Positions 1,598 to 16,525 of a stretch of 17,428 nucleotides of DNA are shown piece by piece (within the stretch, counting starts at the first letter, position 1; each line of letters starts with the position of its first letter). The notes under the pieces are model-generated. The model made no database searches, had not been told where the DNA came from, and was given only the letters and a program-made list of their open reading frames with translations. The translations under genes and the position numbers were made by a program. The stretch is from Hyphomicrobiales bacterium (GTDB lineage: Bacteria > Pseudomonadota > Alphaproteobacteria > Rhizobiales > HXMU1428-3). The stretch spans positions 1 to 17,428 of the forward strand of contig JAJFHW010000387.1 in NCBI GenBank assembly GCA_021775385.1, read 5' to 3'.

Positions 1598-2881
1598 TTA
1601 CTCCCGCACTTTAGATAGATTAATGCAACCGGGAGTTAGAGAATAAACATCTACGATGTCTCCTGCATCTCGAACATAATCATCTTTTTTGAAAACTGCC
1701 CAGCAGTTAGAATTCAGGAGCGGGTGGGTTTTAAAGGATTCTTGTCCTTCAAGTATATCAACAAATAATTCAGCGTCATCCGTTACACTCAAATTTGATT
1801 TTGCGAAAAAATGATAATCATGATTCTTAATAACTTGATTTTTTAATTGTGCTTTTAAGGGAGCCTCACTTGGCAAGCCCTGGAGATTACGTAATAGCGG
1901 TAGCACAAAGAAACGAAAACCAACTGCTGCGGAAATAGGATTTCCAGGCAACCCAAAATAATGTTTATCATTAGGTAAACGCGCATAAAGTATCGGTTTA
2001 CCTGGCCGAATTGCCACTTTATGAAAAATTACTTCTGCTCCTAACTCTCGCAATGCTCCAGGTATAAAATCATGTCGTCCAGCTGAGACACCGCCAGAAG
2101 AAATTAAGACATCTGTCTTATCTAATGCATTAAATATCGAAACTTTAAAATGATCTGCGTCATCAGCTAGAACACCTGCAAACTTTGTTTTTGCCAGTCC
2201 ACTCTCATTTAAAGCTGATAATAAGTAAGGACCATTTGCATCTCTGATTTGCCCAGAACACAGATCAGTAAAACAATCTGTAACCACTTCATTTCCACTA
2301 CTAAAAAGTGTGACTTTAGGCTTTGCAACAACATTGATCATTTTTTGACCAATTGCTGAAAGCGCCAGAATAGATGCAGAGTTTAGCTTGCTGCCTTTAG
2401 AGATTATTAGACTGCCTGATTTATAGTCTTCACCAGGCAGTCTAATATTCGCTTGCCCATTAATTGGGGCTCGAAAAGAGACAACTGACGGATGTTGGTT
2501 ATCATCGGAATTTAGAATTTCCACTTTTTCAACAGGTACTACCGCATCATACCCTCTTGGGACACAAGCTCCTGTCATAATTTCCCAAACGCCTATTGGA
2601 TTATAGGTCTTAGAAAACTCCTCACCCTCAGCACAGGCATCGCCAGCCATGGTTCGACCAACCACTTTTAATTCTATTATATTTGTAGAACTAGCATTCA
2701 ACAACTTGGTAGAGCTGACAGCAAACCCATCTACAGCAGAATTTACAAAAGAGGGAATGAAAACTTCTGAAAAGACATCTTTGCTAGCGACATAGCCAAG
2801 GCAATCACGAATAGGCATTTTCAGGCTTGGAAGTTGCTTCTGCTCAAATATAATCCTTTGAGCGTCTTTAAAGGAAATCAT
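1598..2881 (-). CDS. moeA: Molybdopterin molybdotransferase MoeA
   Basis: This cytoplasmic enzyme inserts molybdate into adenylylated molybdopterin to finish the Mo cofactor needed by NarG. The 427-residue length fits the family. Visible landmarks are PSFVNSAVDGFAV, with the conserved Asp at residue 51, IMTGACVPRGYDAVVPVE at about 101-118, RLPGED at 147-152, the MoCF_biosynth core SSGGVSAGRHD at 261-271, RPGKP at 292-296, and GLPGNPISAA at 310-319. The ATG at 2881 has only a weak purine-rich lead (GTGGAAA directly before it, GAGAGAG further up). It is the first gene after an FNR-type promoter and is followed 4 nt later by nnrS. Its place beside narGHJI suggests a dedicated copy serving nitrate reductase; I cannot see whether the genome has a second moeA. 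A strong inverted repeat lies inside the gene at codons 145-159. Confidence 0.95.
   Translation of the reverse strand: MISFKDAQRIIFEQKQLPSLKMPIRDCLGYVASKDVFSEVFIPSFVNSAVDGFAVSSTKLLNASSTNIIELKVVGRTMAGDACAEGEEFSKTYNPIGVWEIMTGACVPRGYDAVVPVEKVEILNSDDNQHPSVVSFRAPINGQANIRLPGEDYKSGSLIISKGSKLNSASILALSAIGQKMINVVAKPKVTLFSSGNEVVTDCFTDLCSGQIRDANGPYLLSALNESGLAKTKFAGVLADDADHFKVSIFNALDKTDVLISSGGVSAGRHDFIPGALRELGAEVIFHKVAIRPGKPILYARLPNDKHYFGLPGNPISAAVGFRFFVLPLLRNLQGLPSEAPLKAQLKNQVIKNHDYHFFAKSNLSVTDDAELFVDILEGQESFKTHPLLNSNCWAVFKKDDYVRDAGDIVDVYSLTPGCINLSKVRE
2405..2447 (-). repeat. 14-bp perfect inverted repeat (hairpin) inside moeA
   Basis: The arms at 2405-2418 and 2434-2447 are perfect reverse complements (left arm TATTAGACTGCCTG) around a 15-nt loop. 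In the mRNA this is a GC-containing 14-bp stem over moeA codons 145-159, which encode the conserved RLPGED region. It is far longer than neighbouring chance repeats. No T-run follows it on the transcribed strand, so it does not look like a simple intrinsic terminator. Its role is unknown; it could affect mRNA stability or processing. Confidence 0.75.
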
Positions 2882-3004: not shown

Positions 3005-3018
3005 TTGATTGAGGTCAA
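3005..3018. promoter_or_regulatory. FNR/NNR-type box upstream of moeA-nnrS
   Basis: The sequence TTGAT-TGAG-GTCAA matches nine of the ten defined bases of the FNR consensus TTGAT-N4-ATCAA. It abuts the stop codon of the upstream NIT-CRP regulator gene (TAA at 3021-3019) and lies 123 bp before the moeA start. Together with the TGTAAT hexamer at 2982-2977 it forms a convincing class II activator promoter. A protein with an E-x-x-S-R recognition helix, such as the neighbouring NIT-CRP regulator or a conventional FNR, is the likely binder. Confidence 0.75.
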
Positions 3019-4659
3019 TTAAGCGATCTTAATTTCATCTTCGCTTAAAAACTGAGGATTGGGGCAGTCATTCGTATTATGACGAGGGCAATTTTCGGCA
3101 AGACTATGGTCACAGAATTCACAAAGCGCTTTTTCATGAGGCAAAATGATCAAGTCATTTTCGATAATAAACCCTTTTTGCTTTAATCGTTTCAAAGCAC
3201 GAGAGAACGTCTCTCGCTTCATATTTAAATATGAAGCGATGGTTGTTTTATCATATGGAAGCTGTAAATGTTTTGTATGATTTTCCTGATCTAAAGCTAC
3301 TTTTAATAAAAACCATCCAATTCTTTCATCTACAGTTTTTAATCGTGCTATCTCAATTTGGCGAATTAAGTTTTGCGAGCGATAGCACATACTCGATAAA
3401 AGATTTACGGCGAGAATATTATTTTTCTTAACCTGCTCACGAATAACTGGTGCTGGTAATGATAAGATCGTTGCATCTTCAGAAACTTGAGCACTAATAG
3501 GAAATTTCAAGTTAAGATACACTGCTGTTTCCATGATGGTGTCTCCTGAACTTAGCATTTGTAAAATAGCTTCTTCACCACTGCTTGTTCCCTTGAAGAT
3601 TTTAATCCACCCTTTGAGAATGATATAAAGTCGGTTGGCTTGTTCACCTTCTAAGAATAGCAGCTTCCCTTTATTAAATTCACGAACCTGGGCGTGTTGA
3701 AAAAGGGATTGAAGAGACGTTCTGGAAAGACCGGAAAATATTTGTAAGGTGTCTATCAGTAAAACATGTTTTGCAAAAAGATTATTGGAGTATGACATTG
3801 CGTTTTGGATGATGTCATTTTGTTCTAATTCATTTCTTTTGTTCGCAATACTCCCAACTTCTTGAGAGACTGCACTTAATTCAGTTGGATTTTCATCTCC
3901 TTCAAGAGTATCTATAAGTTCATTTAAAATTGTTTGTAAGGAATTTATTTTTTCAGAAATTAAATCAAACCAAGCTTCAGGAGTTAACTCGTATAAATGA
4001 GGTGATTGTGGTGATTGCCTTAAAACGTCGTGAAGATGATCAAGTTTCTGACAAGCTTCGTTTTCTAAAACTTCTCCGACTATTTTTCCTTGTTTTTCAT
4101 TTGCCACAGCTAAAAAGGTATTTTGATAATTATTTTGTTCCGAAAGCAAGAAAAGTAAGCGCTCAACAAATTCTACATTTTGAAAACTGTAAGCGGTGAA
4201 CCCTCTCACTCCAATAGCCCGCTCCAAACCAATACGTTCTTTCCATTGAAGGAATGCATTTAGCGCGCTAACAAATGCAGGCTTTACTTCCTCTATGTTT
4301 AGAGCAATTTCAATACAACTGTTTAGCAAAGGACATATGAGTTGGTGTGAATAGAAATTTAAGGCAGCTGAAACATTAAGATCTAGATTTACAATATTTT
4401 TTCTGACCAAGGTCAGTTCTTCTCTTTTATCTAAAATCACTTTTAGTTTTTTTAAATTCGGGTCTTTTAACAACCCACTAACGGCCCAACTTTCAAGACT
4501 GTTTCCAAAGACTTCAAACATTTTATCTGTTTTTAAAAATTGCAACTCTATACGCTTAGAAAATAGTTTACCTTCACTGCAAAGAAGCATGGCACTGCAT
4601 CCACGTTCTCTTTGCAGTTGATGAATTACATCTCCTAAAATATAAAGTGCTTCTTTCAT
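3019..4659 (-). CDS. NIT-CRP/FNR fusion transcription regulator with C-terminal Cys cluster
   Basis: This predicted cytoplasmic one-component regulator has 546 residues, about twice the usual CRP/FNR length. Residues 1 to about 200 look like a NIT (nitrate- and nitrite-sensing) domain, with an N-terminal HQLQRERGCS motif (13-22) and a KERIGLERAIG motif (140-150). These Arg-rich helices are the ones that bind nitrate in NasR-type NIT domains. A helical linker follows. A cyclic-nucleotide-fold effector domain spans about 300-410 and lacks the RSA-type cAMP contact. A CRP-type winged helix follows, with recognition helix RETFSRALKRL (482-492) carrying the FNR signature E483-x-x-S486-R487. The tail holds C513-X2-C516-X7-C524-X7-C532, a possible Fe-S or metal site. 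I chose ATG 4659, preceded by AAAAGG at suitable spacing, over an upstream in-frame TTG at 4716 that would add 19 residues. There is no membrane segment. It probably controls the FNR-type boxes nearby. Confidence 0.88.
   Translation of the reverse strand: MKEALYILGDVIHQLQRERGCSAMLLCSEGKLFSKRIELQFLKTDKMFEVFGNSLESWAVSGLLKDPNLKKLKVILDKREELTLVRKNIVNLDLNVSAALNFYSHQLICPLLNSCIEIALNIEEVKPAFVSALNAFLQWKERIGLERAIGVRGFTAYSFQNVEFVERLLFLLSEQNNYQNTFLAVANEKQGKIVGEVLENEACQKLDHLHDVLRQSPQSPHLYELTPEAWFDLISEKINSLQTILNELIDTLEGDENPTELSAVSQEVGSIANKRNELEQNDIIQNAMSYSNNLFAKHVLLIDTLQIFSGLSRTSLQSLFQHAQVREFNKGKLLFLEGEQANRLYIILKGWIKIFKGTSSGEEAILQMLSSGDTIMETAVYLNLKFPISAQVSEDATILSLPAPVIREQVKKNNILAVNLLSSMCYRSQNLIRQIEIARLKTVDERIGWFLLKVALDQENHTKHLQLPYDKTTIASYLNMKRETFSRALKRLKQKGFIIENDLIILPHEKALCEFCDHSLAENCPRHNTNDCPNPQFLSEDEIKIA
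3200..3216 (-). repeat. 7-bp stem, 3-nt loop hairpin in the recognition-helix codons
   Basis: CGAGAGA at 3200-3206 and TCTCTCG at 3210-3216 are perfect complements around ACG. They cover codons 482-487, the R-E-T-F-S-R stretch of the regulator. The hairpin overlaps the outer arm of the neighbouring 26-bp palindrome, so the two structures are mutually exclusive when folded. No function can be assigned from sequence. Confidence 0.6.
3214..3239. repeat. Perfect 26-bp palindrome inside the regulator gene
   Basis: All 13 pairs around the centre between 3226 and 3227 match with no spacer (left half TCGCTTCATATTT). It encodes residues 474-482 of the NIT-CRP regulator, the turn of its helix-turn-helix. 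A perfect two-fold site of this length is not expected by chance in a window this size (roughly 17,000/4^13 for a given spacing). It could be a protein-binding site or a DNA/RNA structure. It does not match the FNR consensus. Confidence 0.8.
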
Positions 4660-4790: not shown

Positions 4791-6083
4791 TTAAACTGCC
4801 TGAGAAAATGAAACCTTTCCTTCAGATAAGTAGCTATCGAACTTTGAGGCAATCTTTCTCAATTGATGGTGTCCTCGATTATTCAATGTTAGATGCTCAT
4901 CCACGTAACTTACAATACCGTTTTGAATATAGGGCAAAAGGCTCTTAATTTCTGGTGCAAATTCATTTGAACAAACTTTTGTTTTAAATCCACACATTAC
5001 AGACATTATGATTTTACGCCTTTTAATGTCATTGATTGAGAGCTCCACACCGCGCACGACTGGTAGGCTACCGTTCTTAATTGAAGCCGCGTAACTTCTA
5101 TAATCAGAGGTGTTTTGTAAATATGCTGTTGGTAATGTAGATATTGATGACACTCCAAGGCCTAATAAGGCATCAGCTCTATCAATTGTATATCCTTGAA
5201 AATTTCGTTGTAAACTCTGCTCTTTTTGTGCGATAGCCAAGCTGTCGTCCGGTTTTACGAAATGATCAAGACCAATAGAAACGTACCCATTCGAGATTAA
5301 ATACTCGTGGGCGAAATCAAACATCTCCATTCTCAAATCAGGACCAGGCAGGGCTTTAGCGGGTATTAGTTCTTGATGTTTTTTCATCCAAGGCACATGG
5401 GCATAGCCGAAGAGTGATATCCGATTTGGATCTAACTTTATTGTATTATCAATCGTCTCTTTTATGGTTTCCAAGTTTTGAAATGGTAGCCCATAAATCA
5501 AATCAAAATTGATTTCATTTATTTTGGCCTCACGTAAGTGCTCAACAACATTCTTCACTTGCTCATAAGATTGGTGGCGGTTAATTGCCTTCTGGACCTT
5601 TTCATCAAAGTCCTGCACGCCAATACTAGCTCGATTTACACCGCTTTTTGCATAAGCTAACACTTTTTCTCTATTTACGGTTCGAGGGTCCAGTTCAATT
5701 GCAATTTCAGCTTCATCTAGAACTTTAAAATTCGACCTAACAGTATTCATAAATTTTAAGAAATCTGGCGCTTCAATAACCGTGGGTGAGCCCCCACCCA
5801 AGTGCATATATTTTACGCGCTTCGCTCCAGACATTTTTGCCACCATTGCGATTTCCTGGTGCAACAATTCCAAATAGTTTTCAATGGGCTTATAACCATT
5901 TACAATTTTTGTATGACATCCGCAAAACCAACATAGTTTACGACAAAAAGGAATATGAAAATACAAAGATAAGATATCTTTTTCTTCTAATTTACACAGT
6001 AAATTTTGATATGTTTCACCATCAACCCCGCTATGAAAATTAGGTGCTGTAGGGTAGCTTGTATATCTCGGAATTTGTTCCAT
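4791..6083 (-). CDS. hemN: Oxygen-independent coproporphyrinogen III oxidase (radical SAM)
   Basis: This cytoplasmic enzyme converts coproporphyrinogen III to protoporphyrinogen IX without oxygen, allowing heme synthesis under anaerobiosis, for example for the two b-hemes of NarI. The 430-residue protein starts with the family's PRYTSYPTAPNF block. It then has the radical-SAM/HemN signature HIPFCRKLCWFCGC, with C47, C51, C54 and C56 (CX3CX2CXC). A GGGSPT motif and an ASIGVQDF strand follow. It is somewhat shorter at the N-terminus than E. coli HemN (457 residues). An in-frame TAA seven codons upstream of ATG 6083 excludes a longer start. The ribosome site is a modest GAGAG about 10 nt upstream. 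It is the first gene of the leftward block and faces narK1 across a region with a shared FNR-type box. It is a true HemN type by its motifs rather than the HemW relative. Confidence 0.95.
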   Translation of the reverse strand: MEQIPRYTSYPTAPNFHSGVDGETYQNLLCKLEEKDILSLYFHIPFCRKLCWFCGCHTKIVNGYKPIENYLELLHQEIAMVAKMSGAKRVKYMHLGGGSPTVIEAPDFLKFMNTVRSNFKVLDEAEIAIELDPRTVNREKVLAYAKSGVNRASIGVQDFDEKVQKAINRHQSYEQVKNVVEHLREAKINEINFDLIYGLPFQNLETIKETIDNTIKLDPNRISLFGYAHVPWMKKHQELIPAKALPGPDLRMEMFDFAHEYLISNGYVSIGLDHFVKPDDSLAIAQKEQSLQRNFQGYTIDRADALLGLGVSSISTLPTAYLQNTSDYRSYAASIKNGSLPVVRGVELSINDIKRRKIIMSVMCGFKTKVCSNEFAPEIKSLLPYIQNGIVSYVDEHLTLNNRGHHQLRKIASKFDSYLSEGKVSFSQAV

Positions 6084-6139: not shown

Positions 6140-6153
6140 TTGACCTAAATCAC
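6140..6153. promoter_or_regulatory. FNR/NNR-type box between hemN and narK1
   Basis: TTGAC-CTAA-ATCAC matches eight of ten defined FNR bases, with one mismatch per half-site. It is the only such box I see in the 97-bp divergent region 6084-6180. Its spacing fits class II activation of hemN exactly. On the narK1 side its centre is 70 nt from the chosen start codon, and I find no equally good -10 at class II spacing (TATGAG at 6180-6185 is slightly too far). I see no NarL-type heptamers here. Confidence 0.65.
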
Positions 6154-6204
6154 ATTCTTCAACTCAGATCCTGAAATGCTATGAGCAGCCAAATGGATTT
6201 AATC

Positions 6205-6208
6205 GGAG
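6205..6208 (+). promoter_or_regulatory. Ribosome binding site that sets the narK1 start
   Basis: GGAG lies 8 nt before ATG 6217. The two upstream in-frame ATGs (6181 and 6193) have no comparable site, and 6181 falls within the region where the promoter itself is expected. This favours 6217 as the true start. Confidence 0.7.
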
Positions 6209-6216
6209 TTGGAGCA

Positions 6217-7674
6217 ATGACAATAAGAGCTGTTACAAAAAATGACCAAATACAGGCTTTAGCTAATAGCACACTGGCATTTACAGTGTGCTTTGCTGTT
6301 TGGACAATTTTTTCAATCATCGGCATTCGTATTAAAACTGAGTTAGGCCTTAACGATACTCAATTTGGCATACTCGTCGCTACTCCAATTTTAACAGGAT
6401 CACTTAGCCGGATATTCCTTGGAGTTTGGGCTGACCAATATGGTGGCCGTATCATCTTCACCATACAAATGCTGGCTACAGCCGTTGCTACATTTCTCCT
6501 TACTATGGTGACGACTTACCCAATGTTTTTAATTGCCGCTTTAGGAGTGGGACTAGCTGGGGGTAGTTTTGCTGTTGGGGTTCAGTATGTTTCAACATGG
6601 TATTCTAAAGAGACACAGGGCACTGCACTTGGTATTTTTGGAGCTGGTAATGTTGGTGCAGCTGTTACTAACTTTGGCGCACCTCTCTTATTGGTAGCTA
6701 TGGGGAATGAATGGCAAGCCGTTGCTCAAATTTACGCTATTGTTATTGCAGTAACTGCAGTTTTGTTTTTCCTTTTCACTAAAGATGACCCAGCGCTAGC
6801 CGAACGTAGAGCAAAGGGCATTGAGCACGTTCCTTTTTTAAAACAACTGGAACCACTTAAGCAGCTGCAAGTCTGGCGCTTTTCTCTTTATTACTTTTTT
6901 GTCTTTGGTGCCTTTGTTGCCTTGGCTCTTTGGTTGCCGCGCTATTATGTTGGCGCTTATGGACTAGAACTACAAACAGCGGGCTTATTAGCAGCATGCT
7001 ACGCCATGCCAGGCAGTATTTTCAGAGCCCTTGGTGGTTGGATGTCAGATAAATTTGGTGCCCGGTCAATCATGTACTGGACTTTCTTCGTCTGCGCGGC
7101 CTGTACTTTTATTATGTCCTACCCAGCCACTGATTATAAAGTCGCTGGCATCAATGGAGACATTGATTTTAATCTCACCATCCCCTTATGGATGTTTGTC
7201 TCCCTTACAGTTGTGCTTGGTTTCTTTATGTCTCTTGGTAAAGCCGCTGTTTATAAACACATCCCCGTTTACTACCCAAATCATGTTGGCTCTGTTGGCG
7301 GCATTGTTGGGCTGGTTGGCGGACTTGGTGGTTTCTTTTTGCCGATTTCATTTGGCATCATGAATGACCTTGTTGGTGTGTGGACCAGTTGCTTCATGCT
7401 TTTAACAATCATCATCACCATAGCTTTGGTCTGGATGCATATCTCCATACAAATTCAAGAACGTGAAAAACACCCTGAATTGCGCGGCCCGAAATATTTG
7501 CCTGAACTTGTCAGTGATGAGGACAGCATCATGAGTTTTCTTGAAGCGCAAGCTCTACAACAAAAAAGCGAATTGTTAGCTCAGGAAAGTCAGCAAATGC
7601 TGCACCGGTCTGAAACTCTGAAAAGACAAAGTGATGATCTTCTCAAACAAAGTGAAGAATTAAAACCTGTTTAA
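6217..7674 (+). CDS. narK1: Nitrate/nitrite transporter, NarK1 type, with coiled-coil tail
   Basis: This major-facilitator protein with about 12 membrane segments takes up nitrate, by proton symport in characterised NarK1 proteins. The 485-residue product starts at ATG 6217; a longer 497-residue reading from 6181 lacks a ribosome site. The two substrate arginines expected in segments 2 and 8 are seen in GSLSRIFLG and GSIFRALGG (R65 and R270 from this start). The first nitrate signature is GIFGAGNVGAAV, and a second glycine-rich block is GSVGGIVGLVGGLGG. Residues 449-483 form five exact heptads (x-x-S-x-x-L-x), a predicted cytoplasmic coiled coil that ordinary NarK1 proteins lack. A hairpin lies in codons 18-26. 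It is the first gene of the narK1-K2-GHJI operon, with a 31-nt gap to narK2. The alternative direction, nitrite export, cannot be excluded from sequence. Confidence 0.93.
   Translation: MTIRAVTKNDQIQALANSTLAFTVCFAVWTIFSIIGIRIKTELGLNDTQFGILVATPILTGSLSRIFLGVWADQYGGRIIFTIQMLATAVATFLLTMVTTYPMFLIAALGVGLAGGSFAVGVQYVSTWYSKETQGTALGIFGAGNVGAAVTNFGAPLLLVAMGNEWQAVAQIYAIVIAVTAVLFFLFTKDDPALAERRAKGIEHVPFLKQLEPLKQLQVWRFSLYYFFVFGAFVALALWLPRYYVGAYGLELQTAGLLAACYAMPGSIFRALGGWMSDKFGARSIMYWTFFVCAACTFIMSYPATDYKVAGINGDIDFNLTIPLWMFVSLTVVLGFFMSLGKAAVYKHIPVYYPNHVGSVGGIVGLVGGLGGFFLPISFGIMNDLVGVWTSCFMLLTIIITIALVWMHISIQIQEREKHPELRGPKYLPELVSDEDSIMSFLEAQALQQKSELLAQESQQMLHRSETLKRQSDDLLKQSEELKPV
6268..6292 (+). repeat. Hairpin in the first codons of narK1
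   Basis: AGCACACTG (6268-6276) and CAGTGTGCT (6284-6292) are perfect complements around a 7-nt loop. The stem lies about 50 nt inside the first gene of the operon, with TTTGCTGTTT after it but no long T-run. It could influence early translation or mRNA decay. It could also be a by-product of coding sequence. Confidence 0.5.
7561..7665 (+). repeat. Five tandem heptads at the NarK1 C-terminus
   Basis: The encoded units are QKSELLA, QESQQML, HRSETLK, RQSDDLL and KQSEELK. Ser is invariant at position 3, and Leu or Met is at position 6. The 3-4 spacing of Ser and Leu gives a regular coiled-coil register. The DNA copies are diverged, so this is protein-level rather than recent DNA duplication. Confidence 0.75.
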
Positions 7675-7705
7675 CCATCAATCAAAGAAAGGTGGAAACA
7701 TAGTT

Positions 7706-9319
7706 ATGGCAAAAGACTTACAAAATTGGAACCCTGAAGATGAGCAACAATGGAGCTCATCTGGTAAAAGCATAGCCAATCGTAATTTATGGATCTCTAT
7801 CCCTAGTTTATTATGTGGCTTTGCTGTTTGGTTATTCTGGGGCATCATCACAGTTCAAATGCTGAACCTTGGTTTCCCGTTTAGCAAACCAGAGCTTTTC
7901 ACATTAATGGCGATCGCCGGTTTATCTGGTGCGACCCTTCGTATACCCAGTTCCTTCTTCATTCGGTTGGCTGGTGGTAGAAATACAATTTTTTTCACGA
8001 CTTCATTGCTCATCCTTCCTGCACTAGGCACTGGTATAGCACTGCAAAACCCGGATGCTCCATTGTGGCACTTTCAGCTACTTGCCCTCTTATCTGGTTT
8101 TGGGGGAGGTAACTTTGCTTCCTCAATGTCAAACATTAGTTTCTTTTTTCCCAAAAAGGTTCAAGGATATTCGCTTGGAATGAATGCTGGCTTGGGGAAT
8201 TTTGGTGTCACAACCATGCAAATTGTGGTTCCTCTGGTTATGACAACGGCACTTTTTGCCGGTGATGCCATGCTACTCAAAAATACTAGCGGAACATTAA
8301 TTGGTAAAATTCCAATTGGGACAGAAACCTTTATTCAAAATGCCGGCTACATTTGGTTATGTTTTTTAATTCCACTTTCCATCGCTTCCTGGATAGGGAT
8401 GAATAACATCGTTGATGAACACGTCTCGCCTAACATAGGTGGCACATTAAATGCATTTTTCAAAATCATCATTATGTTAACACTTGGTCTTACTATCGCG
8501 GCAGGTGGCTTATATTTAATGCTGCCGGCAAGTGCTAATGGTTCTGGGCTTAATATTGATAAATTGATCATTCTACCACTTGTTGTCGCGGTCACGGTAT
8601 TTGCGCTTAAAATTCTACCGCTTGGAAAAGATTATAAAGATGGGCTCGCCCGCCAATATAAGATTTTTGATAATAAACACACCTGGGCAATGACTGTTAT
8701 TTATACAATGACCTTTGGATCTTTTATTGGCTATTCAGCTGCACTGGCTCTTTCCATTAAAGTTATCTTTGGGTTTCAGCATCTTATGGTCGACGGTGTT
8801 TTAACTCATAACACAGCAAATGCAAATGGACCGTCAGCGCTCATGTATGCCTGGATGGGACCCTTTATTGGGGCTCTTATTCGCCCTATTGGTGGGATGA
8901 TTGCCGATAAAATTGGCGGTGCGAAAGTTACTCAAATCATTTCAATTATTATGGTCGCCAGTGCCCTGGGTGTTGCTTACTACATGAAGCAAGCTTATGC
9001 CTCTGCGACACCAGAGCAATATTTTTGGCCTTTCCTAATTTTATTCCTCATCTTGTTTGCCGCCACTGGTATTGGCAACGGCTCAACGTTTAGAACCATT
9101 GCTATGGTTTTTGATAAGGAACAAGCAGGCCCAGTGCTTGGTTGGACATCTGCTATCGCTGCTTATGGAGCTTTCTATATCCCTAAGGTCCTTGGAGAGA
9201 ATATCAAAGCTGCAACACCTGAATATGCCCTTTACGGTTTTGCCGCCTTTTACACCATCTGCATTGTCATTAATTGGTGGTTCTACCTTCGTAAAAACGC
9301 ATATGTACAAAATCCATAA
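7706..9319 (+). CDS. narK2: Nitrate/nitrite transporter, NarK2 type (antiporter)
   Basis: This 537-residue major-facilitator protein is predicted to have 12 membrane segments plus a longer central loop. In characterised systems NarK2-type proteins exchange nitrate for nitrite, clearing the product of NarG. The substrate arginines are seen in GATLRIPSSF (R79) and GALIRPIGG (R393). The nitrate signatures are NAGLGNFGVTTMQ in the first half and GIGNGSTFRTIAMVF near the end. The insertion around 190-215 and the loop around 300-330 account for the extra length compared with NarK1. The start ATG 7706 has AGGTGG upstream with rather long spacing. It follows narK1 by 31 nt and precedes narG by 15 nt, so it is co-transcribed. 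In some alphaproteobacteria NarK1 and NarK2 are one fused protein; here they are separate. Confidence 0.93.
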   Translation: MAKDLQNWNPEDEQQWSSSGKSIANRNLWISIPSLLCGFAVWLFWGIITVQMLNLGFPFSKPELFTLMAIAGLSGATLRIPSSFFIRLAGGRNTIFFTTSLLILPALGTGIALQNPDAPLWHFQLLALLSGFGGGNFASSMSNISFFFPKKVQGYSLGMNAGLGNFGVTTMQIVVPLVMTTALFAGDAMLLKNTSGTLIGKIPIGTETFIQNAGYIWLCFLIPLSIASWIGMNNIVDEHVSPNIGGTLNAFFKIIIMLTLGLTIAAGGLYLMLPASANGSGLNIDKLIILPLVVAVTVFALKILPLGKDYKDGLARQYKIFDNKHTWAMTVIYTMTFGSFIGYSAALALSIKVIFGFQHLMVDGVLTHNTANANGPSALMYAWMGPFIGALIRPIGGMIADKIGGAKVTQIISIIMVASALGVAYYMKQAYASATPEQYFWPFLILFLILFAATGIGNGSTFRTIAMVFDKEQAGPVLGWTSAIAAYGAFYIPKVLGENIKAATPEYALYGFAAFYTICIVINWWFYLRKNAYVQNP

Positions 9320-9334
9320 ATTGAGAGAAATATC

Positions 9335-12300
9335 ATGAGCCATATTTTAGATAAATTGACTTTCTTTACTCATAAGGCACCTGAAACCTTCTCTGAAGGT
9401 CATGGTGTTACAACAGATGAAAACCGCGAATGGGAACATGCTTACAGAAATCGTTGGTCCCATGACAAGGTGGTACGTTCGACCCACGGTGTGAATTGCA
9501 CGGGGTCATGTAGTTGGAAAATCTATGTTAAAAACGGTCTTGTCACTTGGGAAACCCAGCAAACTGATTACCCGCGTACGCGCCCTGATTTGCCCAATCA
9601 CGAACCACGCGGTTGTGCGAGAGGGGCAAGCTTCAGTTGGTACCTCTACAGCTCAGCTCGATTAAAATACCCAATGATCCGCTCTAAGCTATTAAAAAGT
9701 TGGCGTGCTACAAAACTTATTCATAAAGACCCGGTTGATGCCTGGGCTTCTCTTATGAGTGATCAAGAATTGACAACAGAGTATAAGCAAGCTCGCGGTC
9801 TTGGCGGTATGGTTCGAACCAGCTGGGAAGAAGCCAACGAGATAATCGCCGCTTCAAATGTCTATACGGCTAAAACCTATGGACCAGATCGTATTATTGG
9901 TTTTTCTCCAATTCCTGCTATGTCCATGATTTCATATGCTGCTGGTAGCCGTTACCTATCACTAATTGGCGGAACTTGTATGAGCTTTTACGATTGGTAT
10001 TGCGACCTGCCACCCGCCTCACCTCAGGTATGGGGCGAGCAGACGGATGTTCCTGAAAGTGCTGATTGGTATAACTCGTCATATATTATTGCTTGGGGAT
10101 CTAATGTCCCCCAGACAAGAACCCCTGATGCTCATTTCTTTACAGAGGCTAGATATAACGGCACAAAAACAGTTGCCGTTACGCCTGACTATAGCGAGGT
10201 TGCAAAGTTATCAGATAGCTGGATGCCAGTGCGGCAGGGAACTGACAGTGCCATGGCTATGGCCATGGGACATGTCATTCTGAAAGAATTTCATTTGGCA
10301 GGAAAAAGTGAATATTTTGATGATTATTGCCGGATGTACACTGACATGCCGTTCCTCGTCATGCTTGATGAGAAAGACGGATATTATGTCCCTGGTCGCA
10401 CCTTACGGGCATCTGATTTTGAGAACAATCTAGGTGAAGAAAAAAACACTGACTGGAAACCAGTTATCTACGATGCCAACACCAACCAAGTTGTCGTGCC
10501 AAACGGGACGGTTGGCTCACGCTGGGATGAAAACGGCAAATGGAATATGGAAACCAAGAACGTTGCAGATGGCTCAGAAATCTGGCCTGAAGTTTCCCTC
10601 TTAAACACTAAGGATGAAGTGGTCTCTGCTGGTTTTCCTTATTTTGGCAACCTTGAAAATGATCAACCTATTTTTGCCCATACTGAACATGACAGCGTAC
10701 AACAGCGCAACATTCCAGCGCGGCGCATAACTCTAGGCGATAACAAAGAAGTTCTTGTTGCAACTGTCTTTGATCTTCTTATTGCTAACTATGGTATCGA
10801 CAGAGGTTTAGGTGGTGGAAACGTGGCAACATCTCTAGAAGATGATGTTCCCTACACCCCTGCCTGGCAAGAAAAAATCACAGGCGTTCCTGCTGAACAA
10901 GTTACACGAATAGCCCGTGAATTTGCAGACAATGCTGATAAAACCCGTGGACGTTCCATGGTGATTTTGGGAGCTGCCATTAATCACTGGTATCATATGG
11001 ATATGATCTATCGTGGCATTATTAACATGCTCATGATGTGCGGTTGTATTGGTAAATCTGGTGGGGGCTGGGCTCACTATGTCGGCCAGGAAAAACTGCG
11101 CCCTCAAACCGGATGGCAACCTTTGGCTTTTGCTCTTGATTGGCACCGTCCGCCACGCCACATGAATTCCACCAGCTTTTTCTACAATCATTCGAACCAA
11201 TGGCGTTATGAAAAGCTTGAGGTCGACGAAATACTTTCCCCCTTAGCAGATAAAGAAAAATGGAAAGACTATTCTCTCATCGATTGCAATGTCAGGTCTG
11301 AGCGTATGGGTTGGTTGCCATCGGCACCTCAACTGGAAGAAAACCCATTAGAGTTATCTAAGCAGGCAAAAACTGCTGGTAAAGATCCTAAAGACTATAT
11401 CGTCGATAAATTAAAAGATGGATCATTACGCATGTCGTGCGAAGATCCTGATAATCCTAAAAACTTCCCACGTAATATGTTTATCTGGCGTTCAAATATT
11501 TTAGGCTCATCTGGCAAGGGGCATGAATATATGCTCAAGCATCTTCTTGGTACTACCAACGGTGTGCTGGGCAAAGATCTTGGAGAGCTTGGAGGCCCGA
11601 AACCTAAAGAAGTAGAATGGCATGAAGAAGCGCCAGAGGGTAAGTTAGACCTTGTTGTCACTTTAGATTTCAGAATGTCGACCACTTGCATGTATTCCGA
11701 CATCGTTCTTCCTTCAGCTACCTGGTATGAAAAAAACGACCTGAATACATCTGACATGCATCCCTTTATCCACCCTCTTTCAAGGGCGGTAGATCCGGCT
11801 TGGGAATCTCGTAGTGATTGGAATATTTACAAAGGAATTGCTGAAAAATTTTCTGAACTTTGCGTTGGTCATTTAGGAACTGAGACTGATGTTGTTGCTC
11901 TTCCTATATTGCATGACACTCCTGCTGAACTTGCTCAAGGTATTGATGTAAAGGAATGGAAATCTGGTGAATGCGAAGCAATTCCTGGCAAAACAATGCC
12001 GAACTACATTTCTGTTGAGAGAGATTACCCCAACACTTACAAGAAGTTCACGGCTTTAGGCCCTCTCATGACGAAAATCGGCAATGGTGGCAAAGGAATT
12101 TCCTGGAATACAGAAGACGAAGTTAGCTTTTTAGGCCAGCTAAACCATACGGTAACACAAGAAGGTGTCTCTAATGGCTTGCCTTGCATTGATACTGATA
12201 TTGATGCAGCTGAAGTTGTCCTCTCTCTTGCTCCTGAGACCAATGGACAAGTTGCTGTTAAGGCCTGGCAAGCTTTGGGTAATTTCACTGGCCGTGACCA

Positions 12301-13096
12301 TACTCATTTAGCGAAACCAAAAGAAGATGAGAAAATTCGCTTCAGAGACATTCAAGCACAGCCCAGAAAAATCATCTCTTCCCCCACATGGAGTGGTCTT
12401 GAAGATGAGCATGTTAGTTATAATGCCGGTTACACAAATGTGCACGAACTTATCCCATGGCGCACTTTAACTGGCCGCCAACAATTCTATCAGGATCATG
12501 CATGGATGCGAGATTTTGGCGAAGGGCTTTGTGTCTATAAACCACCTATTAACACCAAAACAATAGCGCCAGTTATTGACGAGTTTGGTAAAGGGCGCAA
12601 ACAAGTAGTCCTCAATTGGATTACACCTCACCAAAAATGGGGCATTCACAGCACCTACTCTGAGAACCTGTTGATGCTAACACTTAGCCGGGGTGGTCCT
12701 GTGGTTTGGATTAGTGAGATTGACGCTAAAAAAATCGATGTGAAGGACAATGACTGGATTGAACTTTACAACACCAATGGTGCTATTTCAGCGCGAGCTA
12801 TTGTTTCCCAGCGCGTTCCTGAAGGAATGAGCATGATGTATCACGCGCAGGAAAAAATCATCAACACACCTGGAGCTGAAACAACAGGTAACAGAGGTGG
12901 TATTCATAACTCTGTCACTCGGGCTGTGGTGAAACCAACACATATGATTGGTGGATACGCACAGCTTTCTTACGGTTTTAATTATTATGGAACTGTTGGT
13001 TCGAACCGAGATGAGTTTGTGATTGTTAGAAAAGTAGAAAAATTGGATTGGTTAGAAAATCCAGATGAGAATCTTGACCATGAGGAGATTGCATAA
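9335..13096 (+). CDS. narG: Respiratory nitrate reductase catalytic subunit, NarG
   Basis: This 1253-residue molybdenum enzyme reduces nitrate to nitrite on the cytoplasmic side of the membrane in the NarGHI complex. The N-terminal FS0 iron-sulfur motif is intact: H51, C55, C59 and C94 in HGVNCTGSCSW and EPRGCARGAS. This is the same pattern as E. coli H49/C53/C57/C92, shifted by two. The Mo-ligand aspartate is D224 in DWYCDLPPASPQ, corresponding to E. coli D222. Long stretches such as GEQTDVPESADWYNSSYI and NVPQTRTPDAHFF are nearly E. coli-like. There is no twin-arginine signal of the periplasmic type, which fits the cytoplasmic-facing class. The ATG at 9335 has GAGAG upstream. Its TAA overlaps the narH ATG by one base (TAATG), so translation is coupled. 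Confidence 0.98.
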   Translation: MSHILDKLTFFTHKAPETFSEGHGVTTDENREWEHAYRNRWSHDKVVRSTHGVNCTGSCSWKIYVKNGLVTWETQQTDYPRTRPDLPNHEPRGCARGASFSWYLYSSARLKYPMIRSKLLKSWRATKLIHKDPVDAWASLMSDQELTTEYKQARGLGGMVRTSWEEANEIIAASNVYTAKTYGPDRIIGFSPIPAMSMISYAAGSRYLSLIGGTCMSFYDWYCDLPPASPQVWGEQTDVPESADWYNSSYIIAWGSNVPQTRTPDAHFFTEARYNGTKTVAVTPDYSEVAKLSDSWMPVRQGTDSAMAMAMGHVILKEFHLAGKSEYFDDYCRMYTDMPFLVMLDEKDGYYVPGRTLRASDFENNLGEEKNTDWKPVIYDANTNQVVVPNGTVGSRWDENGKWNMETKNVADGSEIWPEVSLLNTKDEVVSAGFPYFGNLENDQPIFAHTEHDSVQQRNIPARRITLGDNKEVLVATVFDLLIANYGIDRGLGGGNVATSLEDDVPYTPAWQEKITGVPAEQVTRIAREFADNADKTRGRSMVILGAAINHWYHMDMIYRGIINMLMMCGCIGKSGGGWAHYVGQEKLRPQTGWQPLAFALDWHRPPRHMNSTSFFYNHSNQWRYEKLEVDEILSPLADKEKWKDYSLIDCNVRSERMGWLPSAPQLEENPLELSKQAKTAGKDPKDYIVDKLKDGSLRMSCEDPDNPKNFPRNMFIWRSNILGSSGKGHEYMLKHLLGTTNGVLGKDLGELGGPKPKEVEWHEEAPEGKLDLVVTLDFRMSTTCMYSDIVLPSATWYEKNDLNTSDMHPFIHPLSRAVDPAWESRSDWNIYKGIAEKFSELCVGHLGTETDVVALPILHDTPAELAQGIDVKEWKSGECEAIPGKTMPNYISVERDYPNTYKKFTALGPLMTKIGNGGKGISWNTEDEVSFLGQLNHTVTQEGVSNGLPCIDTDIDAAEVVLSLAPETNGQVAVKAWQALGNFTGRDHTHLAKPKEDEKIRFRDIQAQPRKIISSPTWSGLEDEHVSYNAGYTNVHELIPWRTLTGRQQFYQDHAWMRDFGEGLCVYKPPINTKTIAPVIDEFGKGRKQVVLNWITPHQKWGIHSTYSENLLMLTLSRGGPVVWISEIDAKKIDVKDNDWIELYNTNGAISARAIVSQRVPEGMSMMYHAQEKIINTPGAETTGNRGGIHNSVTRAVVKPTHMIGGYAQLSYGFNYYGTVGSNRDEFVIVRKVEKLDWLENPDENLDHEEIA

Positions 13097-14667
13097 TGAA
13101 AATCCGTGCTCAAATTGGAAAGGTTCTTAACCTGGATAAATGCATTGGCTGTCATACCTGTTCTGTTACCTGCAAAAATGTTTGGACATCGCGCCAGGGG
13201 GTTGAGTATGCCTGGTTTAACAATGTTGAGTCAAAACCTGGTGTTGGTTACCCTCGCAAATGGGAAGATCAAAAGGTCTGGAATGGGGGCTGGGAGCGCA
13301 AATCAAACGGCAGCCTTACTCCAAAAATGGGTGGAAAATTCAGACTATTAGCCAAAATTTTTGCTAATCCTGACCTACCTGAAATTGATGATTATTACGA
13401 GCCATTTACTTTCGAATATGAACGGTTGCAAAAAGCCCCTTTATCGAAAGCTATGCCAACGGCCAGAGCTCACTCAGCAATAACTGGCAAGAAAATGGAA
13501 AAACCTGAATGGGGACTAAACTGGGAAGAAATCCTTGGTGGCGAGTTTTCAGAGCGCAGTGAAGATTATAATTTTGAGAGCATTCAAAAAGAACTTTACG
13601 GAGAATTTGAAAATACATTCATGATGTATCTTCCGCGCCTTTGTGAGCATTGCCTCAACCCAACTTGTGTTGCGGCTTGCCCAAGCGGGGCTATCTACAA
13701 GCGCGAAGAAGATGGTATTGTGCTTATCGACCAAGACAAGTGCCGCGGTTGGCGTATGTGTGTTTCCGGATGTCCTTACAAGAAAATCTATTATAACTGG
13801 CAATCAGGCAAATCGGAAAAATGCACATTTTGTTACCCTCGTATTGAAGCTGGTGACCCAACGGTTTGCTCAGAGACCTGTGTTGGCCGTATTCGCTATT
13901 TAGGCGTTATGCTTTATGATGCAGATAGAATTAAAGAAGCGGCCAGCATTGAAGCCCCTGAAGATCTGTATCAGGCACAACTAGATATTTTTCTTGACCC
14001 TCATGACCCTGAAATTATTGCTCAGGCAAGAAAAGATGGTGTTCCTGAGAGTTGGATTGAAGGTGCACAAAATTCTCCAGTTTATAAAATGGCGATGGAT
14101 TGGAAAGTTGCCTTTCCACTGCATCCTGAGTACCGCACGCTTCCAATGGTTTGGTATATCCCGCCATTATCACCTATTCAGAACGCAGCTGAAAAGGGGC
14201 AAATTGATATGGCCGGGGTTATTCCTGATGTCCACAAATTACGCATTCCTGTGAAATATTTGGCCAATCTCTTGACTGCGGGCAAAGAAGAGCCAGTGGT
14301 TCATGCTTTAGAGCGAATGATCGCAATGCGTGAATTCAAGCGCGGTCAAAACGTAGATGGTGAAAGCAACATAGATCTTCTCTCACAAGTTGGTCTGGAT
14401 GAAAAGACTGTCAATGATATGTACCGCATCATGGCGTTAGCGAGCTATGAAGATCGCTTTGTTATACCGACAAACCACAAGGAATATGCAGGGGAAACAC
14501 CATTTGACAATGAAATCCCGTTCGACACTCGGTCTGCTTGTGGATTTAGTTTTGGTAATGGCTGCTCTGGTGGGACAAGCAAACCAAACCTATTTGGAGC
14601 TAAAACTCATCAAAACACAATGAGTGGCAGAATACATGAACCCGGCTCAAAAGGAGATCGCTCATGA
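13096..14667 (+). CDS. narH: Respiratory nitrate reductase iron-sulfur subunit, NarH
   Basis: The 523-residue subunit wires electrons from NarI hemes to NarG through four iron-sulfur clusters. All ligand groups are present: C16/C19/C22/C26 (CIGCHTCSVTC), C183/C186/C191/C195, C216/C222/C226 and C243/C246/C258/C262. Trp219 stands where a fourth Cys would make a [4Fe-4S] cluster, giving the [3Fe-4S] cluster typical of NarH. The numbering is within one residue of the E. coli protein through this region. A GAGGAG ribosome site lies in the end of narG. The last four bases overlap the narJ start (ATGA), the normal coupling in nar operons. The C-terminal tail is slightly longer than in E. coli (512 residues). 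Confidence 0.98.
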   Translation: MKIRAQIGKVLNLDKCIGCHTCSVTCKNVWTSRQGVEYAWFNNVESKPGVGYPRKWEDQKVWNGGWERKSNGSLTPKMGGKFRLLAKIFANPDLPEIDDYYEPFTFEYERLQKAPLSKAMPTARAHSAITGKKMEKPEWGLNWEEILGGEFSERSEDYNFESIQKELYGEFENTFMMYLPRLCEHCLNPTCVAACPSGAIYKREEDGIVLIDQDKCRGWRMCVSGCPYKKIYYNWQSGKSEKCTFCYPRIEAGDPTVCSETCVGRIRYLGVMLYDADRIKEAASIEAPEDLYQAQLDIFLDPHDPEIIAQARKDGVPESWIEGAQNSPVYKMAMDWKVAFPLHPEYRTLPMVWYIPPLSPIQNAAEKGQIDMAGVIPDVHKLRIPVKYLANLLTAGKEEPVVHALERMIAMREFKRGQNVDGESNIDLLSQVGLDEKTVNDMYRIMALASYEDRFVIPTNHKEYAGETPFDNEIPFDTRSACGFSFGNGCSGGTSKPNLFGAKTHQNTMSGRIHEPGSKGDRS

Positions 14668-15353
14668 AGACGTTTAAAATATTAGGGCTGTTACTAACTT
14701 ATCCTGAAGGGTCAATCCTAAAGGCGCATAAAGAATTGTTAGACATCATAAAAAACGAAGATATTTTACCACCAGCTGCACTTAAAAAAATAGACCATTT
14801 TATCACCGCTCAGAACAATAAAGATCTTTTAGAAATTCAAGAAGACTATGTCGATCTTTTTGATCGTGGACGTGCTTATTGTCTTCATCTTTTTGAACAT
14901 ATTCATGGCGAGTCTCGTGACAGAGGCCAGGCTATGGTTGACCTAATAGAAACGTACAAAACGAAGGGTGTTTATATCGATAATAATGAGCTCCCTGATT
15001 ATCTTCCTTTATTCATGGAGTATCTTTCTCATTGTTCATTTCAAGAAGCTAGTGAACTTCTTGGGGATGCTATTGATGTCATTGCTACGATTGGTAAGAA
15101 GCTAGAAAAACGCGGCTCAATCTACGCTGATGTTTTTTCTGCTATTGAAGCTCTCTCCTCTGTTAAACCAGATAAAACTAAAATTGCTCAAGCTATCGCT
15201 GAAGCACCAAAAGACCCTGAAACACTAGAAGAGCTTGATGAAGAATGGAAAGAAGCAGAAGCCTTCAGTGGTGACCCTGTTGCCGATTGTAATAGTTGCA
15301 ACGCCTTTCCCAATGCAACTGAAGCCTTAGACAAACAAATAGGAGGAGCTTAA
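14664..15353 (+). CDS. narJ: Nitrate reductase assembly chaperone NarJ
   Basis: This cytoplasmic, all-helical TorD-family chaperone binds apo-NarG and controls cofactor insertion and docking on NarI. It is not part of the mature enzyme. The 229 residues match the family length. The start KILGLLLTYPE and the signature block FDRGRAYCLHLFEHIHGES (about 68-86), followed by RDRGQAMVDL, are typical. The acidic C-terminal third is usual. ATG 14664 overlaps the narH stop by four bases and has AAAAGGAG upstream. The stop precedes narI by one base, with the narI ribosome site AGGAGGAG inside the last narJ codons. Confidence is high from motif and position. Confidence 0.96.
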   Translation: MKTFKILGLLLTYPEGSILKAHKELLDIIKNEDILPPAALKKIDHFITAQNNKDLLEIQEDYVDLFDRGRAYCLHLFEHIHGESRDRGQAMVDLIETYKTKGVYIDNNELPDYLPLFMEYLSHCSFQEASELLGDAIDVIATIGKKLEKRGSIYADVFSAIEALSSVKPDKTKIAQAIAEAPKDPETLEELDEEWKEAEAFSGDPVADCNSCNAFPNATEALDKQIGGA

Positions 15354-15354
15354 A

Positions 15355-16050
15355 ATGGCGTTAGATTATATTCATCAATTTTTATTCGGATATTATCCTT
15401 ATATTTGCTTAGCTGTTTTTGTTATAGGAAGCGCTCTTCGATACGATAGAGATCAATATTCCTGGAAGGCTGATTCAAGTCAGCTTTTGCGAAAAAAAGG
15501 CATGGGGCTTGGAAGCAACTTATTCCACATAGGTATTATCCTGCTGTTTTTTGGTCATTTAGTTGGTCTTTTAACACCACATGAAGTTTATCATCATTTC
15601 ATGACTGTTGAGAGCAAACAAATTATGGCCATGGTTGCTGGTGGAATTTTTGGCACCATCTGTTTCATAGGAATGACCATTCTACTAAAACGCCGTTTAT
15701 TCGATGATCGTATTCGTTCAACAAGTAAACCTTCGGATATTATGATTTTAATCCTTCTTTATGTTCAATTGATTTTGGGTTTAATTACACTACCCTTCTC
15801 AGCCCAACACCTCGACGGTAGTTCAATGGTTGCTCTCGCAAATTGGGCGCAACATATTGTGACTTTCCGATCTGGTGCTGCTGACTTCATCGTCAATGAA
15901 GCTCTTGTTTTCAAGCTTCATCTGATTTTAGGAACAACCATCTTCCTGATTTTTCCGTTCACTCGCCTGGTGCATATTTTCAGTGGTGTTTCAGCGCCTT
16001 TGAAATATTTACTCCGCTCTGGCTATCAAATTGTACGAAAGAGAGGTTAG
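15355..16050 (+). CDS. narI: Respiratory nitrate reductase cytochrome b subunit, NarI
   Basis: This 231-residue membrane subunit with five predicted segments oxidises quinol and passes electrons through two b-hemes to NarH. The four heme-ligand histidines are H58 and H68 (LFHIG and FFGHLVG) and H189 and H207 (FKLHLIL and TRLVHIFS). They are in the same spacing as E. coli H56/H66/H187/H205. The ATG is preceded by the strong AGGAGGAG site in narJ. The TAG stop lies 4 nt before the following gene's start, so that gene is co-transcribed. Anaerobic heme for this subunit could come from the HemN encoded upstream. Confidence 0.97.
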   Translation: MALDYIHQFLFGYYPYICLAVFVIGSALRYDRDQYSWKADSSQLLRKKGMGLGSNLFHIGIILLFFGHLVGLLTPHEVYHHFMTVESKQIMAMVAGGIFGTICFIGMTILLKRRLFDDRIRSTSKPSDIMILILLYVQLILGLITLPFSAQHLDGSSMVALANWAQHIVTFRSGAADFIVNEALVFKLHLILGTTIFLIFPFTRLVHIFSGVSAPLKYLLRSGYQIVRKRG

Positions 16051-16054
16051 CTCC

Positions 16055-16525
16055 ATGCCAATTATAATAAATGATATTGAAATTACAGATGATGAAGTAC
16101 ACGCAGAGATGCAACATCATCCGGCGGGGGGTGTTGATGAGGCTCGTCACAGAGCGGCACGAGCTCTGGTTGTGAGAAAAATTTTATTGCTGGAAGCTGT
16201 GAATTCTAAATTATTAGTATCAGCTGAGAATTGTTCTCCTCTTGAGGAAGAACAAGCAATTGACGCTTTACTTCAAAGCAACATCTCAGCGCCCGTTGCT
16301 GATGACACCAGTTGCTCTCGATATTATGAACAAAACAAAGAACGGTTTATCGACAAGAAAACCAACAAGCCCTTACCTTTTTCATTGGTACAACAATATA
16401 TCCATGACTACCTACAAACAAGATCTCTTCAAACCGGCATCAGCCATTACATAAAAGTATTAGCAGGCAAAGCTAACATTCATGGATTTGACTTAGAGGG
16501 AGCAGACAGCCCACTTGTGCAATAA
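16055..16525 (+). CDS. Parvulin-like (PpiC/NifM-type) protein lacking the catalytic core
   Basis: Many proteobacterial nar operons carry a peptidyl-prolyl isomerase gene of about 250-300 residues directly after narI, thought to help assemble the reductase. This 156-residue protein matches the N-terminal part of that family (MPIIINDIEITDDEV, the AEMQHHPAG block, a long helix, then CSRYYEQNKERF at 87-98). It also matches the C-terminal part (KPLPFSLVQQYIHDYL at 105-120, then HYIKVLAGKANIHGF). The parvulin catalytic domain of roughly 90-100 residues that normally lies between these blocks is missing, and the join falls near residues 98-105. The frame is open and clean, so this looks like an in-frame loss rather than a decaying pseudogene. 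ATG 16055 has GAGAGG 8 nt upstream; an in-frame TTG at 16031 inside narI is less likely. It has no signal peptide. Confidence 0.75.
   Translation: MPIIINDIEITDDEVHAEMQHHPAGGVDEARHRAARALVVRKILLLEAVNSKLLVSAENCSPLEEEQAIDALLQSNISAPVADDTSCSRYYEQNKERFIDKKTNKPLPFSLVQQYIHDYLQTRSLQTGISHYIKVLAGKANIHGFDLEGADSPLVQ

Follow-up and report, generated by a model that had tools for sequence, protein, structure and literature searches.

A NIT domain joined to a Crp/Fnr-type transcription factor

The window, i.e. the whole stretch of 17,428 nucleotides analyzed here (contig JAJFHW010000387.1 of a Hyphomicrobiales bacterium), contains a minus-strand gene for a NIT domain joined to a Crp/Fnr factor, an architecture that is real and unusual. 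Some alphaproteobacteria probably turn on nitrate respiration via this single NIT-FNR-type protein, in the place of NarR. The fusion is likely to be a cytoplasmic one-component activator of narK1-narK2-narGHJI that responds to nitrate or nitrite and fills NarR's place, with FNR giving the oxygen signal. This reading is based on the domains, the predicted fold, the conserved residues, the gene position, the DNA box, the NarR-like genes in the same slot, the presence of FNR and a search of five genomes in which no PilJ-type domain was found. The parts of the fusion gene are as follows.

3019..4659, minus strand: NIT-Crp/Fnr fusion gene, 546 amino acids plus stop (ATG at 4659, stop codon 3019-3021)
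3904..4632, minus strand: NIT domain, residues 10-252
4603-4605, minus strand: Arg19, first of the NIT arginine pair
4219-4221, minus strand: Arg147, second of the NIT arginine pair
3784..3903, minus strand: linker, residues 253-292
3424..3684, minus strand: cNMP-fold effector domain, residues 326-412
3118..3327, minus strand: HTH_Crp_2 DNA-binding domain, residues 445-514
3064..3123, minus strand: Cys4 tail C513-X2-C516-X7-C524-X7-C532, residues 513-532

The original prediction, made from the DNA letters, had described 3019..4659 as one open frame with NIT, cNMP-fold and CRP-type helix-turn-helix parts. The coordinates were right, the strand (minus) was not stated, and the C-terminal CX2CX7CX7C tail was missed. 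In the program-made list of open reading frames the frame begins at TTG 4716; the closest relatives align from MKEAL (ATG 4659). Both predicted arginine-rich motifs were located, HQLQRERGCS at residues 13-22 and KERIGLERAIG at residues 140-150. The profile search proposed as a check returned all three domains: NIT (PF08376; residues 10-252, E 1.4e-30, 107.8 bits versus a curated cut-off of 24.9), cNMP_binding (residues 326-412, E 4.5e-16) and HTH_Crp_2 (residues 445-514, E 2.4e-12). As read from the sequence, this architecture bears out the suggested one-component design.

Relatives were collected by scanning a single genome of each species with an alignment of five sequences, which gave 79 loci (of 81 confirmed stretches, 80 were kept). 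Fusions were found in 63 of these, counting partial genes at contig ends (e.g. L061, L090, L099), and more occur in further genomes, which rules out a frame artefact or an oddity of one assembly. The window protein and 52 relatives from the fusion loci were aligned (alignment A2), and all 53 match NIT, cNMP_binding and HTH_Crp_2 at E ≤ 0.001. The original prediction knew of no characterized example, and in the paper listings and passages searched, which exclude most subscription papers, no description of a NIT-Crp/Fnr fusion was found.

By sequence comparison NasR (4akk) matches residues 10-249 of the fusion (E 2e-9). Structure prediction, also proposed as a check, gave an all-helical, NasR-like fold for the N-terminal NIT region, with both arginines in the model. 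Arg19 is present in 53 of 53 proteins and Arg147 in 52. In NasR, nitrate or nitrite is proposed to sit in the arginine pocket (PMC7496416, seen in part), and by analogy the NIT domain of the fusion may bind either anion.

The fusion gene is linked to nar genes and an FNR-type box

The nar genes, the gene that intervenes and the FNR-type boxes of the window are:

6181..9319, plus strand: narK1 and narK2, NarK-family nitrate/nitrite transporters, probable targets
9335..16050, plus strand: narGHJI, respiratory nitrate reductase (narG by TIGR01580; narH, narJ and narI by reading and order), probable target
4791..6083, minus strand: hemN, oxygen-independent coproporphyrinogen III oxidase, separates the fusion gene from narK1
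6140..6153, plus strand: FNR-type box TTGACCTAAATCAC, 1 mismatch, upstream of narK1
3005..3018, plus strand: perfect FNR-type box TTGATTGAGGTCAA, in the gap from the end of the fusion gene to moeA
1598..2881, minus strand: moeA (molybdopterin biosynthesis), a possible target located downstream of the box at 3005

Divergent nar genes were found upstream of the fusion gene in 57 of the 58 loci that have 700 bp or more of upstream sequence (less is available in L040, L042, L048, L066 and L090). For L058, counted among the 57, the evidence is a NarG match of 76 residues at a contig end. The fusion gene thus has the position of a NarR-like gene, divergent from narK-narGHJI; hemN intervenes in the window as well as in G002, G003 and L038. 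In total, narG was reached in 49 of the 63 fusion loci. The gene adjoining the fusion is only 25-29% identical to the window NarK1 in 19 of the 58 loci and may, judging from its sequence, be another transporter there; NarK2 and NarG, where in reach, match those of the window at >70%, L058 excepted.

The narK-side regions were searched with all 1024 five-base half-sites at spacings of 2, 4 and 6. TTGAC-N4-GTCAA ranked first and occurred with ≤1 mismatch in 43 of 52 dereplicated regions, compared with 0, 0 and 1 in three control sets, which were first-order Markov resamplings rather than exact dinucleotide shuffles. Chance is therefore ruled out as the source of the box across the whole family. 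Within the window by itself, 6 matches (≤1 mismatch) were counted versus 3.94 expected, which is not significant since 39 of 200 shuffles reach 6. The broader TTGAY-N4-RTCAA was present, at the same tolerance, in 57 of 59 narK-side regions (the window and 58 loci, with L032 and L036 coinciding). Except in L039, a box lies 17-153 bp before the narK1 match start, which approximates the start codon, in every box-bearing region. The perfect box just beyond the end of the fusion gene recurs in G003, G002 and G007.

The recognition helix ETFSR is present in all 53 proteins of A2. Together with the box upstream of narK1, this supports, as far as sequence can indicate, the DNA recognition part of the predicted action on FNR-type promoters. 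A cAMP-controlled CRP was ruled out, since the position that aligns, by eye, with the cAMP-phosphate-contacting Arg of CRP holds Ile388 in the fusion and is Arg in 0 of 53 proteins (A2). An FNR-type N-terminal iron-sulfur (Fe-S) cluster was rejected as well, because neither the linker nor the beginning of the Crp/Fnr module contains a cysteine.

The fusion occupies the slot of NarR-like regulators

The comparison with NarR covered the window's genome and 60 others of the same genus and order, 61 in all. narG is encoded in 17 of them; 5 of these 17 carry the fusion versus 0 of the 44 without narG (Fisher p 0.001, with 4 of the 5 fusion genomes from one genus and hence not independent). Of the 12 other narG genomes, whose narG surroundings were compared, 8 carry a NarR-like gene of the Crp/Fnr family that diverges from narK; in L172 and L180 no NarR-like gene lies beside narG, and in L173 and L181 the contigs end near narK. 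One of the 8, G004, belongs to the window's own genus and encodes a NarR-like protein 70% identical to a Paracoccus alcaliphilus protein. The P. alcaliphilus and P. zhejiangensis proteins are annotated only as cyclic nucleotide-binding; we take them to be NarR-like from their gene place and the abstract of Wood et al. 2001. As compared at the slot, the nar-divergent position holds a fusion or a NarR-like gene, one or the other.

No PilJ-type (NarX/NarQ) domain was found in the 5 fusion genomes searched, with a positive E. coli control and a window assembly that is 79% complete. A classical FNR with N-terminal cysteines was identified by reading in 5 of 5 fusion genomes examined. According to the passages available, NarR is sensitive to nitrite and nitrate and controls nar together with FnrP (PMC3541799, PMC8139620), stands in for NarXL in alphaproteobacteria (PMC8139620) and is required for nitrate reduction in Paracoccus (PMC3541799). 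Of the original prediction, the one-component design and the FNR-type recognition are supported. Its 'short route around NarX/NarL' calls for other words, because no PilJ-type domain was found in the five genomes and NarR is said already to replace NarXL in alphaproteobacteria. The fusion looks like an alternative to NarR rather than a NarXL bypass.

Like NarR of Paracoccus, the fusion is a Crp/Fnr regulator without the FNR-type Fe-S cluster (PMC8139620, in the part seen); its gene diverges from narK-narGHJI, and an FNR-type box lies in the intervening DNA. The NarR-like proteins differ in length (232 residues in the two annotated Paracoccus records, 232-286 stop to stop in the set), are too short for a NIT domain, lack the Cys4 tail and form their own clade. 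With NasR of Klebsiella oxytoca the fusion shares an N-terminal NIT domain of the same predicted fold, the arginine pair and the one-component design, whereas the output of NasR is an RNA-binding ANTAR domain instead of a DNA-binding Crp/Fnr module, and its genes are those of nitrate assimilation instead of respiratory nar. FNR and FnrL have the same cNMP fold, Crp-type helix-turn-helix with an E..SR recognition helix and FNR-type box, but carry an N-terminal cysteine cluster that the Crp/Fnr module of the fusion does not have. Nitrate control of nar genes, which for the fusion is presumed, is the point in common with NarX/NarQ-NarL/NarP, whose histidine kinase and response regulator parts are absent from the fusion.

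A model for nitrate control and its alternatives

In the proposed mechanism, nitrate or nitrite would be held between Arg19 and Arg147 on two neighboring NIT helices. The ligand-induced change would cross the flexible linker and release or reorient the dimeric Crp/Fnr module, which could then bind TTGAY-N4-RTCAA upstream of narK1 and activate narK1-narK2-narGHJI, perhaps moeA-nnrS too; the oxygen signal would come from the cell's own classical FNR. Nitrate binding, activation rather than repression, the target genes and the coupling are what we infer here. Linker residues 257-289 were predicted with a predicted local distance difference test (pLDDT) score < 50, and across the 53 aligned proteins (A2) the stretch from one anchor column to the other measures 24-49 residues. 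Since the linker is of low confidence and of this length, a rigid helical relay is thought less likely; our guess is an autoinhibitory or dimer-geometry switch.

Several observations weigh against this model. The low-confidence linker leaves the coupling of NIT to the Crp/Fnr module unclear, and a NIT domain without nitrate or nitrite binding is reported. No TTGAY-N4-RTCAA box (≤1 mismatch) was found in the nar-adjacent relatives L080 and L081, nor, in the window, does any box immediately precede the fusion gene. Which factor binds cannot be read from the box, since it is FNR-type, FNR is encoded in the same genomes and 11 of 11 NarR-like slots have a box of this kind.

The Cys4 tail might extend the model without conflicting with it. 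C513 is conserved in 52 of 53 proteins, C516, C524 and C532 each in 53 of 53 (A2). Such a pattern would naturally suggest a metal or Fe-S site, and it is possible, if doubtful, that the fusion senses oxygen or nitric oxide (NO) via a redox-labile Fe-S cluster on the tail. Besides the near invariance of the cysteines, this is favored by the fact that similar tails terminate NIT-less Crp/Fnr regulators (L164-L168, L102), including L188 (7907-8680) in the slot divergent from narK-narG and L190, which shares one 16-kb stretch with narK and narG (neighbors by reading). On the other side, a classical FNR is encoded in the same genomes, a structural zinc site would look identical, the tail is modeled with moderate to low confidence, and the nar-linked relative L039 lacks the first cysteine. 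L188 may represent a step from NarR-like regulators to the fusion. Other standalone Cys4-tailed regulators were seen, by reading, near genes resembling those for cbb3 oxidase assembly (L187) and without a clear neighbor link (L186, L189).

In a quick tree of the Crp/Fnr part, with some long branches, fusion, NarR-like and Cys4-tailed proteins form one group (Shimodaira-Hasegawa-like approximate likelihood ratio test, SH-aLRT, 88), apart from FNR and other Crp/Fnr proteins. The 11 NarR-like slot proteins form one clade (SH-aLRT 98) with no fusion protein within, so that the fusion lies outside the NarR-like sequence clade. Of the 31 fusion rows, 30 fall together (SH-aLRT 93) with two NIT-less paralogues (L095, L097) inside, and L170 groups with tailed NIT-less proteins (SH-aLRT 87). 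Owing to these three, a single clean origin was rejected (31 fusion rows as one clade, p 2.6e-52). As judged from the sequences, a gain of NIT on a tailed ancestor with later losses and several fusions both fit, and misplacement is possible. In L092, L095 and L097, all nested among fusions, no nar match was found in the fetched stretches, and NIT is degenerate (L092) or absent (L095, L097). We regard it as a still more tentative proposal that one polypeptide forms a nitrate-AND-anoxia gate at the nar promoter, with NIT for nitrate or nitrite and a Cys4-tail cluster for anoxia or NO, born by NIT addition to a Cys4-tailed, nar-linked Crp/Fnr lineage related to NarR.

It is unlikely that NIT senses a ligand other than nitrate or nitrite, or has turned into a dimerization module, in a fusion that still controls nar. 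This would suit L092, the single protein without Arg147, which retains the three-domain architecture with a degenerate NIT domain. L092 is also the sole locus with at least 700 bp upstream and no nar gene there, and has no nar within 10 kb. Both arginines are nevertheless kept in 52 of 53 proteins, whereas the L002 chemoreceptor has Lys at the second position, and nar linkage is near universal among the loci seen. The window genome encodes two NIT chemoreceptors (L002, L003); because of the Lys in L002, the arginine pair is not invariant across NIT domains at large.

Even less probable is a fusion that mainly represses nar or other genes until relieved by nitrate. Contacts of NIT with ANTAR keep NasR inactive until nitrate frees it (PMC7496416, seen in part), so the sign of the output is unreadable from the domains, but the distance of the box to narK1 suits an activator site, and Paracoccus requires NarR, the regulator characterized for this slot, to reduce nitrate (PMC3541799, seen in part).

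Distribution and other features of the window

The fusion-locus records are alphaproteobacterial assemblies and Exilibacterium tricleocarpae (Cellvibrionaceae), whose strain R142 carries a nar-adjacent relative (L079). The fusion is uncommon, since in the class sample 1 of 384 genomes besides the window's has it (E 1e-60; truncated by a contig end) and in the phylum sample 2 of 397, both of the window's class, while the other E 1e-60 matches are NIT-less. There was no match to the fusion in the phage collection, and among the 40 of 427 plasmid records listed, none matches 80% of the query at a single site. Two further features lie toward the ends of the window.

16049-16525: small protein after narI, no Pfam family above the cut-off
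3-335: C-terminal end of a histidine kinase, truncated by the contig edge

In Paracoccus zhejiangensis the gene after narI is annotated as a peptidylprolyl isomerase, and there are weak matches behind other nar operons.

The passages of the NarR literature consulted give no account of how NarR senses nitrate. The fusion is a compact candidate for a nitrate-responsive transcription factor, with the Cys4 tail as a further candidate sensor, and an explicit nitrate-sensor domain in NarR's slot would offer a model, direct and open to testing, of how alphaproteobacteria place nitrate respiration under the control of nitrate.
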